A stretch of DNA of 64,000 nt from Plantactinospora soyae. GTDB taxonomy: Bacteria; Actinomycetota; Actinomycetes; Mycobacteriales; Micromonosporaceae. The notes under the pieces are model-generated. The model made no database searches, was not told the origin of the DNA, and worked only from the letters and a program-made list of their open reading frames with translations. Positions within the stretch are counted from its first letter, which is position 1; the number at the start of each line of letters is the position of its first letter. Positions 33,880 through 39,109 of the stretch are shown here, one piece after another. Location of the stretch: assembly GCF_014874095.1 (NCBI RefSeq), contig NZ_JADBEB010000001.1, forward strand, positions 62,001 through 126,000. Reading direction: 5' to 3'. The position numbers and the translations under genes are program-made.

Positions 33880-34084
33880 TGACTAAAAGCTGGACTTGTC
33901 TCTTGCCAGTAGGCCGTGTGCAACCTTCAATCGCGGGCTGGCCGAGGTCAAGGCCCGATTCAGGATGATCAGGCGAATCCTCCACGAAATTGAACGAACC
34001 CACCGCAAGACGGCAATGCCCTTCACTGCCGCCCATGCGGCGCTGGACGCCTATCGAGTGCGATATCCGCGCGGAACGCGATGA
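33880..34084 (+). pseudogene. Degraded copy of the small coiled-coil gene
   Basis: The reading KAGLVSCQ-stop-AVCNLQS continues after a shift as LAEVKARFRMIRRILHEIER. It aligns with LKAELASCQQALCALQS and LTEAKSRLGMISRIARDVER of the gene at 37050. An in-frame TAG and a frameshift mark it as decayed. It is in the same orientation as the intact copy. Confidence 0.75.
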
Positions 34085-34311
34085 ACCACTTCAGACCAGA
34101 TCAATCTCTGCTCGGCGAAGACAGAAGAAAGCGCGCACTGCCTGCCCTTTCACCCCCGAACCGGTAAGCATTGACCGGGGCTGCCGCGATGGTCCTCCTA
34201 GTGTCGCCGGACGGCGCCTGGCAGGTGCACGGATCCACCATGGCTACTGGCCCCCTCTTCCCCGGACCTCCACCGTCCGCTATTTTGTCAGCACAGCGTG
34301 TAGGGGGGTTC

Positions 34312-35502
34312 GTGAGCAGCCACGACGAATTTTTCAACACGAAGCAAGCGGAGGCCGTCTTCAAGCACGGAATCCTCAAGCGTTACCCCGTCGTCTTCGC
34401 CTCCAAGACGGGCTCGGCCGTGGACGGCGGCCGGGTCGTGTTCCTTGACGGCTATGCCGGCCGCGGTGAGTACAAGGACGGATCGCCTGGCTCACCATTG
34501 CTGCTATCGCAGGCTGCTGAGTTCCTGCAGAGCACCCGCGATGTCCTGGGGTACTTCGTCGAACAAGACGACGATAGCTTCGACAACCTTGAACGGGTTC
34601 TGCGCGACAAGGGCGGCCCGACGAACTTCGAGGTCCGCCACGGCTCAGTGGACGATCACCTACCCGAACTACTCACCCTCGCTCGCAGCGCTTCGTTGTT
34701 CGCCTTCCTTGACCCGTTCGGCCCAGCACTGGACTTCAACATCATCAAGGGTTCGCTGCTCGGACGGTCGAAGTGGCCGCCCACCGAGGTCCTGCTGCAT
34801 TTCAGCGTGCTCAGCGTCGCCCGCATGGGCCGAGCGGTCCACATCGCTCGCCAGTCGAGCGGTGGGCTATCGGAAGATGACGGCAAGACGGCAGCGCGCC
34901 TGGACCGATTCCTCGACGGTGGCTGGTGGAAAGACTACTTCGCCCAAGTCCACGACGACGGCGACGAACAGAAAGCCACTGACGTCGCTATGCGAGTCTG
35001 CGCCGAGTACCAGCAGAGGCTGATCGCCGGAACCAGATACACGGCGATCAGCATGCCCGTGCGTCCGCGCCCCGACCTGGCGCCCAAGTACGTGCTGATG
35101 TTGCTGACCGCCGACAGCGAAGGCGCCTGGTGCTTCGCCGACGCGCTGGGCAGAGCCGGACGGGACTGGACTGCGGCCTGGTTCACTGAGCGGATGAACC
35201 GAGAGGGACCCGCCGGACAGGGATCACTGTTCGGCGAAGCGCCGGTCTTCGACCACAACCAGTACGAGGTGGACAACCGGGCTACGTGGATACAAACCAT
35301 CGCCGCGAACATCGACGGCCTGCTTACCGGTGTCGGCCCTTTCAAACTCGTCGACCGGGTACCAGAGGTCTACGGCATGGTACTGGGTCAGGCATGGGAG
35401 CGACATGTCAAAGCGGCGGTCAAGCTGCTGCATAACAGCCGCAAGATCGACCACGACGGCAAAGGCAAGTACTTCTTCAGAGACGTACTACGTCGCATGT
35501 AG
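34312..35502 (+). CDS. tcmP: Three-Cys-motif partner protein TcmP
   Basis: 396 residues from GTG 34312, with AGGGGGG six bases upstream. The opening DEFFNTKQAEAVFKHGILKRY, the phrase VFLDGYAGRGEYKDGSPGSP and FAFLDPFG are characteristic of TcmP (TIGR04474-like), a family found next to DUF5131 proteins that carry a three-cysteine motif. The GYAGRGEY and LDPFG segments resemble a class I methyltransferase fold (inference). The partner gene converges from 36308. Base composition is less GC-rich than the neighbours, suggesting acquisition. Confidence 0.88.
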   Translation: MSSHDEFFNTKQAEAVFKHGILKRYPVVFASKTGSAVDGGRVVFLDGYAGRGEYKDGSPGSPLLLSQAAEFLQSTRDVLGYFVEQDDDSFDNLERVLRDKGGPTNFEVRHGSVDDHLPELLTLARSASLFAFLDPFGPALDFNIIKGSLLGRSKWPPTEVLLHFSVLSVARMGRAVHIARQSSGGLSEDDGKTAARLDRFLDGGWWKDYFAQVHDDGDEQKATDVAMRVCAEYQQRLIAGTRYTAISMPVRPRPDLAPKYVLMLLTADSEGAWCFADALGRAGRDWTAAWFTERMNREGPAGQGSLFGEAPVFDHNQYEVDNRATWIQTIAANIDGLLTGVGPFKLVDRVPEVYGMVLGQAWERHVKAAVKLLHNSRKIDHDGKGKYFFRDVLRRM

Positions 35503-35549
35503 ACGCACGCCATCTACGCCAGCCCGATCGGCGGCCGCGCAGCATCCCC

Positions 35550-36308
35550 CTACCGCACCGTGGCCAACCGCTGACCGGATGGCATCTCGTCCCACGTCCG
35601 GCCGTCGAGTAGCCGGCCCCCCGCCTTCGGCGTCCGTCCACCCCACTGCTTGAAGAAAAACGCCGTCCCAGCCGCGTTGCACTGGTCCCGAAGTTCTCGT
35701 ACCCACTGTGGGTTCATGGGGCGACAGTTCTGCCCGGACTCACCGCCGGCAATGAGCCAGTCAATACCGCTCAGTTTCAAGCCGGTAAGCGAACCAAGTA
35801 GCGGCTCCGCCGAAACGAACCGCACCGCGGCCGGAACCTGGCGTAGCTCATCGATGCGAGCCACCTCGTCGGCGTTCTCGACGCTGACACCCATCCACAC
35901 GTTCGCTGGCCAGTCGAGCTGCGGCGCTAACTTCGCCAGCCTCGCAGCTCGCTTGGTGAGCAACTGATAGGTGTGCCGGGGCGTCTCGTGCATGACGCCG
36001 AACACGCGCCGCACGTACTCTAGCGGCACCCGAGCATGGAACAGGTCGGACATCGAGTTGACAAACACGACCCGTGGATCCCGCCACCGTCGCGGGATAT
36101 CCAAGGTGTCCTCATGGACGGCCACACCGAAGCCGGGTCCGGAGGTGCGTGGGTCGCCATCGGTCTGGTACTTCGCCGATCCCATGGCCTTCAGTCGCTT
36201 CGACAGCGCGAGAGCATAGCAGTTATCGCAGCCGGACGAGATGCGGTCGCACCCTGTTGTCGGGTTCCACGTCGCCTCGGTCCACTCGATGGTGCTGTGG
36301 TCCGCCAC
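35550..36308 (-). CDS. DUF5131 (phage Gp37/Gp68-like) three-Cys-motif protein
   Basis: 252 residues from GTG 36308, four bases after GGAGGTGA; TTG 36311 is less likely. The motif Cys20-x6-Cys27-x2-Cys30 in GCDRISSGCDNCYA suggests an iron-sulphur site of radical-SAM type. Later family signatures are VFVNSMSDLFH, WMGVSVEN and GGESG. Homologues occur in phages and mobile elements. Convergent with tcmP, its usual partner. The reaction is unknown. Confidence 0.9.
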   Translation of the reverse strand: MADHSTIEWTEATWNPTTGCDRISSGCDNCYALALSKRLKAMGSAKYQTDGDPRTSGPGFGVAVHEDTLDIPRRWRDPRVVFVNSMSDLFHARVPLEYVRRVFGVMHETPRHTYQLLTKRAARLAKLAPQLDWPANVWMGVSVENADEVARIDELRQVPAAVRFVSAEPLLGSLTGLKLSGIDWLIAGGESGQNCRPMNPQWVRELRDQCNAAGTAFFFKQWGGRTPKAGGRLLDGRTWDEMPSGQRLATVR

Positions 36309-36687
36309 CAAATCACCTCCCTGAGATCAACCATCTTGTCGAACATCCGTACGGTACGGAAGGGTTCACAGGCTGTCGTACCCAACCGATTACCTGCCGG
36401 GTATGTCATCGGGTACAACGCCACGGGCTTCCTCACGTCGTTGGCACCAGCAGCCGGACCGTGCACATGTGCGATCGGCCGGGAACATCGCACAAGTCAG
36501 GCTGCCGATCCGCCGCAGGTACCTGGCCAAACAGGAGGTATGGCGAAACGAGCGGCTCGTCCAAGCAAAGGCCGGTCGCGTGCTTGGGCGCGACAACACC
36601 CAAGATGCTGTTCCAGCAGGTCGGGGCCGCAACTCGCCTCGTCACGACATCCTGCCGCCCACGTGATCCCCAGCAGCGAATCCGGGG
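36309..36687. other. Intergenic stretch without supported gene
   Basis: 379 bp between the DUF5131 start and the HTH gene stop. Open frames exist on both strands, for example ATG 36540, but none has a well-spaced ribosome site or a familiar product. Confidence 0.5.
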
Positions 36688-36909
36688 CTAGGGTCCGTCG
36701 TCGACCTGCCGCTGGTGCGGCCGATGCTTCCGGATGTACTCCTCGACGTCGCTCCTAAGCCAAATCGCTCCAGCGGTCAGCACCTGGTACGGCTTCGGAA
36801 ACTTCGGGTTCGCGGTGATCTGCTTCAACCGCGATCGGCTGACGCCGCCCAACAACTCCATCACCTCAGCCGGCCCCGCGAGCGGGCCGGGCGGACGGTC
36901 GGCGGGCAT
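36688..36909 (-). CDS. Small AlpA/MerR-like helix-turn-helix protein
   Basis: 73 residues from ATG 36909. GPAEVMELLGGVSRSRLKQI is followed by PKFPKPYQVLTAGAIWLRSDVEEYI, the AlpA/excisionase-type winged HTH: helix, turn, then FPKP and W-x-x-x-(D/E)-V-E-x-W/Y. Such proteins regulate or excise integrated elements. No integrase is in the window. A longer N terminus (GTG 36927 or ATG 36969) is possible. Confidence 0.82.
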   Translation of the reverse strand: MPADRPPGPLAGPAEVMELLGGVSRSRLKQITANPKFPKPYQVLTAGAIWLRSDVEEYIRKHRPHQRQVDDGP

Positions 36910-37049
36910 GCCCAAGATGGTCCCCACGCCTAGGCCTCCCCATGTTGGGACTGCCCATGCATGGCTCCCCATATTGACAGGGGGATGAGGCTCGGGGACG
37001 ATCCAGGACAGGCCCCCTGCCTGGTCGCACATGCCGGCGCCGGGCGGGG

Positions 37050-37364
37050 GTGCCGCATTCTCAGTCGAGCCGGGGAGGACCTTTGCTGCATCACGCGTTC
37101 CATCCGCCCGAGCAACCCTCGCTAACGCCCGAGCAGCGGACGGAGCGTCTGAAGGCTGAACTTGCCTCCTGCCAACAAGCCCTGTGCGCGCTCCAGTCCG
37201 AGCTGACGGAGGCCAAAAGCAGGCTTGGGATGATCAGCCGGATAGCGCGAGACGTCGAGCGGACCCGTCGAGCCCCCGGAGTTTCGTGGGCCGCAGTCCG
37301 AGCAGCGTTGTACGCCCGGCCAGGGAAACCCCCGGACCGCGGGCCGGACTTACCGATCTTGTGA
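37050..37364 (+). CDS. Small coiled-coil protein
   Basis: 104 residues. The middle (LKAELASCQQALCALQSELT) is a heptad-patterned coiled coil and the tail reads VSWAAVRAALYARPGK. Unknown family. Two damaged relatives lie at 33880 and 39018, so it belongs to a locally multiplied gene. The first ATG may be too early: the pattern that has relatives starts near residue 30. Confidence 0.6.
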   Translation: MPHSQSSRGGPLLHHAFHPPEQPSLTPEQRTERLKAELASCQQALCALQSELTEAKSRLGMISRIARDVERTRRAPGVSWAAVRAALYARPGKPPDRGPDLPIL

Positions 37365-37477: not shown

Positions 37478-37865
37478 GCCCAGTGGGTGCCCCAGCGAGT
37501 ACCCCGGCCGGCGCGTCGAGCAGGATCCAGCGTACGACGTTCAGGCCGAGGCGCGTACGCAGTCGGGGCAGGAACCGATTCGGCAGGTACGCCATCCCCG
37601 GCATATCGCCGTACCCGACGGTCTGGCTGCGGCGGGCGACGTCACCGCCGAGCAGCAGGTGCTCAATCATGCCCTGCGCGCACACCGCCTCGATCAGCTC
37701 GATCAACGCGCTGTCCGGCCGCTCCCGGCGCCGTGCCATCCCGCCATAGCCCAGGTACGCGCCCCGCTGGGTGCGAGTTCCACGTACAGCCCCGGATCAG
37801 GGGCACGGTCGGCATGCGCGCAGCACGACCCGTCCCGCAGCAGCCCCATCAGCCTCCAGCAGGTC
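37478..37865 (-). pseudogene. Phosphotriesterase fragment, copy A
   Basis: Corresponds to the C-terminal third of the gene at 44043: DPGLYVELAPSGA, RPDSALIELIEAVCAQGM and HLLLGGDVARRSQTVGYG. The N-terminal metal-binding half is missing and the end differs, so it cannot be active. About 85% DNA identity by eye. Confidence 0.85.
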
Positions 37866-38642: not shown

Positions 38643-38700
38643 CAGCCGCTGGTGCCCCAAGCAAGTACCCGGTCCGGCGCGTCAACCAGGATCCGGTGGG
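38643..38700 (-). pseudogene. Phosphotriesterase fragment, copy B (extreme C terminus)
   Basis: The minus strand reads HRILVDAPDRVLAWGTSG and stops, matching the last residues RRILVDAPARVLAWGTSG of the gene at 44043. It follows the cassette terminator just as the full gene follows copy 2. Confidence 0.8.
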
Positions 38701-38738: not shown

Positions 38739-38960
38739 CGTTCAACGAGCGCCTGTCGGGCATTGTCCCGAATAACCTCGATCGCGCCGCCCACCTTCCC
38801 CCGCGTCCAGGGGAGCGCCGGAACGGCAGGGCCGGCAGCAGATGGATCGCCGTGACCGGCGTGGCCGGGTGCCAGGTGCGGTGTACCTCCCCGGTGAGGA
38901 CCGCGATCATCGCCGCGCCGAGTCCGGTCGCCGCCAGTCCCGGCACCACGGCATGCCATC
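38739..38960 (-). pseudogene. Deleted remnant of a histidine kinase gene
   Basis: Two blocks match the kinase at 22054-23445: 38739-38818 equals about 22629-22713, and 38819-38960 equals about 23005-23150. Residues such as HRTWHPATPVTAIHLLPALPF correspond to HRNWQPATLVTALHLLPSLLF. About 300 bp between them are missing. Confidence 0.8.
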
Positions 38961-39017
38961 GGCTGCCCGAGGGGTGTCGAGTCCCGCCTAGTCTCCGCAG
39001 GTCCGACGAGTGGACCG

Positions 39018-39109
39018 GGCCCGACGTGTCCATCGCTGCCATCCGAGCGGCGCTCTACGCCCGACCAGACCGGCTCGGCGATCTCGGGGCCGACCTACAC
39101 GTCTCGTAA
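39018..39109 (+). pseudogene. Tail fragment of the small coiled-coil gene
   Basis: VSIAAIRAALYARPDRLGD and the following GADLHVS align with VSWAAVRAALYARPGKPPD and GPDLPIL at the end of the gene at 37050. The N-terminal coiled coil is absent. Confidence 0.7.

Follow-up and report, generated by a model that had tools for sequence, protein, structure and literature searches.

Genes of two protein families, TcmP and DUF5131, stand side by side in the PADLOC entries PDC-M30 and PDC-M41 and in the arrangement described by TIGR04474, in which TcmP accompanies a three-cysteine protein. The PADLOC entries give neither a reaction nor a mode of regulation; we found no assigned reaction for either family, and the open literature held no paper under the term DUF5131. 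Here, we analyzed such a pair in a 64,000-nucleotide (nt) stretch of Plantactinospora soyae DNA, called the window below (positions 62001-126000 of a 9.7-Mb single-contig genome). The window carries the same two families as those entries, and the PADLOC A models match its TcmP weakly and partially. Other described proteins resemble single parts of the pair. The NCBIfam model TIGR04471, radical S-adenosylmethionine (SAM) mobile pair protein A, aligns with residues 78-222 of the window DUF5131, outside the cysteine motif (E 2.1e-21), yet the score of 76.4 bits lies far under the cut-off of 355 and the protein is not a member. Spore photoproduct lyase (SPL) is the best fold match of DUF5131, and other partners of TcmP match SPL by sequence. 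We take the cysteine spacing of SPL to be CX3CX2C, as is also visible in our alignment with those partners, whereas the window DUF5131 has CX6CX2C, is shorter, and is paired with TcmP. TcmP is related in sequence and fold to Trm1 and to RlmJ, the 23S rRNA m6A2030 methyltransferase, with a similar motif I, Lys18 and motif-IV Asp; it differs from RlmJ by DPFG in place of DPPY, an added C-terminal extension and a QxxLF linker. Finally, many DUF5131 genes have boxes of the actinobacterial SOS (LexA) or PafBC (RecA-NDp) regulon where a promoter is expected; the window box has one mismatch, and a group made up mainly of Streptomyces loci has neither box. The fold, the bridging partners, the promoters, a linkage to recA and a clamp-like motif in TcmP together lead us to favor, as moderately probable, a mobile, damage-inducible pair for nucleic-acid repair or modification.

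The initial annotation had described an intact tcmP gene converging on an intact DUF5131 gene with a CX6CX2C motif, and the reading frames, family matches and cysteine codons bear this out. The tcmP frame is open from 34171 to 35502 on the plus strand, with GTG 34312 as the most likely start; the same start position is found in a congener (L129) and in two relatives (L143 and L145). DUF5131 probably starts at GTG 36308, with TTG 36311 as an alternative, and the convergent genes are separated by 47 nt. TcmP scored 103.9 bits against TIGR04474 over residues 17-279 (curated cut-off, 53), and the three-cysteine partner typical of that model is present as DUF5131. The latter matched Pfam PF07505 at 338.1 bits (E 3.8e-101; residues 2-243 of 243; gathering cut-off, 28.9 bits). 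Its cysteine codons at 36249-36251, 36228-36230 and 36219-36221 specify Cys21-X6-Cys28-X2-Cys31, and each of these residues is invariant in 58 aligned DUF5131 proteins. A genome-wide search returned one match per family in the source genome.

DUF5131 promoters are enriched for LexA/SOS or RecA-NDp boxes, which is a new observation. The patterns sought were those of SOS (CGAAC-N4-GTTCG), of RecA-NDp, a damage promoter independent of RecA, and of Escherichia coli-type and alpha-type boxes; counts were compared with those in shuffled sequences (mean, maximum). Among 107 DUF5131 upstream regions of viral and first genome loci, four held an exact SOS box (0.03 in shuffles) and 15 a box within one mismatch (0.58, maximum 2). 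We then took 70 non-redundant upstream regions from a chromosomal set consisting of the nearest 80 DUF5131 loci, the best of at least 591. Seven of these promoters had an exact SOS box (0.01, maximum 1), and 17 had one when a single mismatch was allowed (0.27, maximum 2); for RecA-NDp the counts were five with up to one mismatch (0.04, maximum 1) and 11 with up to two (0.38, maximum 3). At these limits 28 of the 70 promoters carried one box or the other and none carried both, and the RecA-NDp pattern read backwards, used as a control, matched none of the 70. As a further control, 615 neighboring genes picked by a G+C-codon rule yielded no exact SOS box and eight within one mismatch, three of them before tcmP; RecA-NDp boxes occurred before five within one mismatch and eight within two. 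One of those five precedes tcmP and another uvrA; this uvrA gene, at L161 (8973-10733), is close to a TcmP-DUF5131 pair. In the 107 regions, E. coli-type boxes were not enriched before DUF5131 at one mismatch (4 versus 4.94 in shuffles), nor were alpha-type boxes (8 versus 4.60, maximum 12), of which two were exact (0.15, maximum 1). Within the open literature we found no paper that connects either family with boxes of LexA or PafBC, preprints and most subscription papers being outside that search.

In the window, a near-SOS box upstream of DUF5131 reads CGTAC for CGAAC. The seven closest relatives (L140-L146, of Micromonospora and Salinispora) share this one-mismatch box, as do the congeneric loci L129 and L130; the eighth nearest relative, L147, has no box, and L128 has an exact SOS box. 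A near-SOS 17-mer pattern, chosen after the boxes of the window and its relatives had been seen, matches two sites in the 9.7 Mb, one before DUF5131 and one before ruvC (RuvC identity, E 9.8e-49); its backward control matches none. A PafBC promoter for the window tcmP was considered and rejected: no RecA-NDp match was found there within two mismatches, and a lookalike before the GTG is, by eye, not shared by the congener.

The linkage to recA comes from mycobacteria. In a one-genus sample of 148 genomes TcmP was found in 26, and at 26 of 29 loci DUF5131 was its neighbor. At one mycobacterial locus (L235) the order is recA (with an intein), recX and tcmP, followed by convergent DUF5131 and UPF0004 (miaB-type) genes, and this DUF5131 gene is preceded by a RecA-NDp box that deviates at one position. 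Among the 26 DUF5131 promoters of the one-genus set, 14 have a RecA-NDp box within two mismatches and two an exact SOS box; this set is not an independent test because it overlaps the 70 regions and holds near-identical rows. The gene order from Rv2737c to Rv2733c, as far as it goes beyond the two reports cited next, is presumed here. In these reports, recA, recX and Rv2735c are co-transcribed (PMC3062782), and Rv2734, Rv2735c, recX and recA form a cluster differentially expressed after mitomycin (PMC5057432). A third names BCG_2748c as a TcmP-domain protein (PMC7387457). By its numbering BCG_2748c would correspond to Rv2735c; with the gene order at L235, this label suggests that Rv2735c and Rv2734 are a TcmP/DUF5131 pair.

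The initial annotation had taken the cysteine spacing of DUF5131 as a hint of a radical-SAM-like Fe-S site and had proposed structure prediction, which we ran for the two proteins singly. The AlphaFold2 (AF2) model of DUF5131 had a predicted local distance difference test (pLDDT) value of 88.6, and its top four Foldseek matches in the PDB were SPL (best E 4.3e-4; TM-score normalized to the query [TMq], 0.46). The window protein has no match to Radical_SAM (PF04055) at E up to 1, lacks the canonical CX3CX2C spacing, and has no SPL family model among its matches in the Pfam scan. The connection is made by other partners of TcmP. In a phylum sample of 296 genomes, 12 of the 37 with TcmP have no DUF5131 match; the loci of seven of these 12 were read (L096, L097, L098, L101, L102, L104 and L110), and in all seven an SPL-like protein with CX3CX3C adjoins TcmP. 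The partner at L109 has CX3CX2C. Of four partners scanned, two exceeded the Radical_SAM cut-off (L098 and L104), and all four matched DUF5131 below its cut-off. A profile of eight partners matched SPL in the PDB at E 8e-7 and DUF5131 at E 3e-7 over 36 columns that include the cysteine motif, with GCxHGCxxPCYA of the partners aligned to the three cysteines. Because the fold match and the bridging partners link DUF5131 to radical SAM proteins, the best reading of the family, judged by sequence and model, is an SPL-like branch of radical SAM proteins whose cysteine spacing is widened. The radical-SAM-like character thus finds support in the SPL fold, the weak TIGR04471 match and the bridging partners that match Radical_SAM. 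Separately, the window DUF5131 (35550-36311) matched Pfam GP88 (gene product 88) at E 8.4e-5, just under the cut-off, and the DUF5131 protein of Gordonia phage Fairfaxidum matched it just over the cut-off; the DUF5131 fold may include GP88 as a further branch.

The methyltransferase-like fold suggested for TcmP is likewise supported. A profile of 50 TcmPs matched RlmJ (7p8q) at E 2.7e-5, and Foldseek matched the AF2 model (pLDDT, 90.7) to Trm1 (E 1.7e-5; TMq, 0.34) and RlmJ (E 2.1e-5; TMq, 0.37). Across the alignment of these 50 proteins, Lys18, Tyr25, Asp46 and Asp134 do not vary. According to PMC3814359, Lys18 and the motif-IV Asp of RlmJ are essential; from its motif context, as opposed to a superposition, Lys18 of TcmP is probably the equivalent of the catalytic Lys18. 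Beyond its catalytic domain TcmP has the motif QGSLF, which keeps Q1, L4 and F5, and not L2, of the clamp-binding consensus QLxLF given in PMC4549789. The pattern Q..[LMI][FW] occurred in 27 of 85 non-redundant TcmP tails, versus 3.19 in shuffles (maximum 9), and stood at shuffle level in TcmP heads (8 versus 8.4); in an earlier set of tails it was found in 19 of 79 (1.76 in shuffles). In the model, the helical end after the QGSLF linker reads as winged-helix-like. The coordinates of these features are collected in Table 1.

Table 1. Features of the TcmP-DUF5131 locus, in window coordinates
Feature	Position	Strand	Basis
tcmP, RlmJ-like class I methyltransferase-like protein, 396 aa	34312..35502	+	TIGR04474, 103.9 bits; AF2 model, pLDDT 90.7; Foldseek Trm1/RlmJ
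Lys18 codon, invariant	34363..34365	+	placed like catalytic Lys18 of RlmJ by motif context
Motif I, D46-GYAGRG, predicted SAM-binding loop	34447..34467	+	D46 invariant, G50/G52 >=90% in 50 TcmPs
Motif IV, D134-PFG	34711..34722	+	D134 invariant in 50 TcmPs
QGSLF, beta-clamp-binding-like motif, residues 303-307	35218..35232	+	low-confidence linker, pLDDT about 58
DUF5131, SPL-like radical-SAM-like protein	35550..36311	-	PF07505, 338 bits; AF2 model, pLDDT 88.6; Foldseek best match spore photoproduct lyase
C21-X6-C28-X2-C31, putative [4Fe-4S] site	36219..36251	-	Cys invariance; alignment with GCxHGCxxPCYA of SPL-like partners
Near-SOS (LexA) box, CGTACGGATGTTCGACA	36337..36353	-	on the 5' side of DUF5131, at about 28 nt; differs from CGAAC-N4-GTTCG at one position
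AlpA/excisionase-like helix-turn-helix protein, neighbor outside the conserved unit	36688..37032	-	Pfam Phage_AlpA, E 0.092

The co-occurrence of the two families, mentioned in the initial annotation, is present in chromosomal and viral loci alike. The chromosomal set was gathered with DUF5131 as query, a first contig search with TcmP having returned none. TcmP was found in 79 of its 80 loci, in convergent orientation in 61, in tandem with DUF5131 first in 17 and divergently in one; the sole locus without TcmP borders the end of its contig, and one of the 79 has its TcmP 2775 nt off. In the phylum sample DUF5131 matched 36 genomes, and both families were found in 25, versus about 4.5 expected under independence; two of these 25 (G105 and G207) were counted through DUF5131 matches under the cut-off. 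Three of seven genomes of the source genus have DUF5131. One of them, G301, has a convergent pair amid ordinary chromosomal genes with no phage genes by eye (L129), a second, tandem pair with an IS66 transposase gene close by (L128), and two DUF5131 copies without TcmP in phage-like stretches (L131 and L132). G297 has both genes in convergent orientation with one gene between them (L130). DUF5131 proteins without TcmP (L131, L132 and those of viral loci such as L017, L018 and L025) are often longer than the paired forms.

The pair is also carried by mobile elements, as the initial annotation had supposed: it is found on viral contigs and on a temperate phage, and integrases are among its neighbors. 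Among viral loci with DUF5131, 51 of 80 contained TcmP as well. Among phage records, 157 had a DUF5131 match and 10 a TcmP match, and Gordonia phages carry the pair. In the temperate Gordonia phage Fairfaxidum, the start of tcmP lies 3 nt past the gene of the immunity repressor, and tcmP overlaps the convergent DUF5131 gene, with a serine integrase gene near. For a survey of neighbors we picked 131 genes by the same kind of G+C-codon rule as for the control genes and scanned 110, omitting 21 that were mostly short; nine of the 110 proteins matched the Pfam phage-integrase family.

The small excisionase-like gene had been proposed as a switch for the pair. It does adjoin the pair, with a match to Phage_AlpA (13.1 bits) under the Pfam cut-off of 21 bits. 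A phmmer search found no homologue of it in 165 related loci, so that we do not count it as part of the unit and reject the switch. To the right of the pair, an AraC gene is conserved in congeners. A comparison of 20 kb found no clean empty site for the pair, only the right flank aligning in the three stretches compared, and no RNA family reached its gathering score between 33 and 40 kb of the window. Open frames at 33896-34084, 37050-37364 and 38950-39109, which flank the pair and recur rightward, have similar-looking ends by eye; a single small gene may have given rise to them as decayed copies. To the right of the AlpA-like gene, a stretch of 39 nt is directly repeated with 85% identity (37490-37528 and 38656-38694, 1166 nt apart).

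Within the favored reading of a damage-inducible repair or modification pair, we infer the following steps. DUF5131 would act as a divergent SPL-like radical SAM enzyme, as computed fold and motif suggest; its three cysteines would hold a [4Fe-4S] cluster and turn SAM into a 5'-deoxyadenosyl radical that acts on a base. DNA damage would open the DUF5131 gene, through LexA in the relatives of the window gene and presumably in the source strain, and through PafBC in many mycobacteria, as the boxes imply. TcmP would be either an RlmJ-like SAM-dependent amino-methyltransferase, transferring a methyl group, or a methyltransferase-like DNA-binding partner. Given the motif enrichment, binding to the sliding clamp, together with the C-terminal winged-helix-like domain, would probably bring it to replicating or repaired DNA. 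The two proteins would act together on a presumed substrate, either a lesion or a modified base, which they would reverse or remodel. That the pair reverses lesions directly, as SPL does, is a tentative proposal. Its fullest form is more doubtful: a two-enzyme system at the replication fork, in which a damage-induced SPL-like radical SAM enzyme has as its partner an RlmJ-like methyltransferase tethered to the clamp.

Several observations weigh against the damage-inducible reading. Most of the DUF5131 relatives in the promoter set (42 of 70) carry neither box, and the enrichment at tcmP promoters is only weak (5 of 76 have SOS within one mismatch, versus 0.80, maximum 4). Another element, CGTTRGGCA, occurs in 11 of 72 DUF5131 upstream regions (0.105 in shuffles, maximum 2), in a group made up mainly of Streptomyces loci (L148, L149, L151, L152, L156, L157, L167, L174, L178, L191 and L202), at 54-67 nt before the start or, at L148, 21 nt; it may represent a third promoter or operator type, one without SOS or RecA-NDp boxes. 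The one-mismatch box of the window is ordinary by count, with three found versus 3.98 expected in 64 kb. The SOS pattern is uncalibrated on the host: of its 29 exact matches genome-wide 15 were read, 12 of which lie inside genes by our gene picks and none of which was recognized as belonging to recA or lexA. TcmP was not found in 29 of the 80 viral DUF5131 loci, four of which end no more than 170 nt from DUF5131, and many of the uncut ones have a longer DUF5131; the control genome of Thermotoga maritima has DUF5131 and no TcmP match. The TM-scores are low (0.46 for DUF5131 and 0.34-0.37 for TcmP), and the target group of TcmP is uncertain because its motif IV is DPFG and not the DPPY of RlmJ. 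Finally, the passage of PMC5057432 on mitomycin does not give the direction of the response.

The alternative that survives best, albeit as an unlikely one, is an anti-phage defense pair: the two proteins would attack incoming nucleic acid or mark the DNA of their own cell, and the lysogen would be protected when they are expressed upon damage or by a prophage. The PADLOC candidates PDC-M41B and PDC-M30B match DUF5131 at 363 and 346 bits, and the two A models match TcmP at E 4e-7 and 5.5e-7; both systems have candidate status only. The place of the Fairfaxidum gene beside the repressor gene and near the integrase fits a cargo that protects the lysogen. According to PMC10855318, PDC-M30 is predicted in 32 Pseudomonas aeruginosa strains, 68.8% of them phage resistant, and an expression table in PMC12445080 lists the TcmP SMa2243 directly after the hna gene SMa2245. 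Some neighbors are defense genes: an MmeI-type IIG restriction enzyme adjoins one pair (L199, 6966-9773), and PD-Lambda-3, Mko and pAgo models match among the 110 neighbors, as raw counts without a baseline, and such matches are few. Against defense stand the SOS and RecA-NDp promoters and the place in a recA-recX operon, which are signatures of repair; we therefore put the DNA damage response first. An RNA- or translation-linked stress response, with TcmP methylating RNA as RlmJ and Trm1 do and DUF5131 modifying the same RNA by radical chemistry, is improbable. The nearest TcmP relatives with structures are indeed RNA methyltransferases, but SPL is a DNA repair enzyme, the clamp-like motif and the damage promoters point to DNA, and PMC3814359 describes the active site of RlmJ as more like those of DNA m6A enzymes. 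Least probable is an anti-restriction hypermodification of phage or mobile-element DNA, in which the pair would build a modified base: the phage records of both families fit it, but the L129 copy lies among chromosomal genes, another copy lies beside recX, and the pair has just two genes, no search having been made for nucleotide biosynthesis genes.

The TcmP/DUF5131 pair is widespread in actinobacteria and phages. If the damage-inducible reading is right, genes now listed as defense candidates would be re-read as serving DNA repair or modification, and several actinobacteria would have an extra step in their damage response. The bridging SPL-like partners would turn DUF5131 from a domain of unknown function into a predicted radical SAM enzyme. 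The damage promoters and the place beside recA-recX provide a testable biological setting for the pair, with the Gordonia phages that carry it as a laboratory model. Should direct lesion reversal hold true, a lesion-reversal pair that at least one mycobacterial genome has beside recA-recX, and that temperate phages carry as cargo, would hitherto have been filed as possible phage defense.

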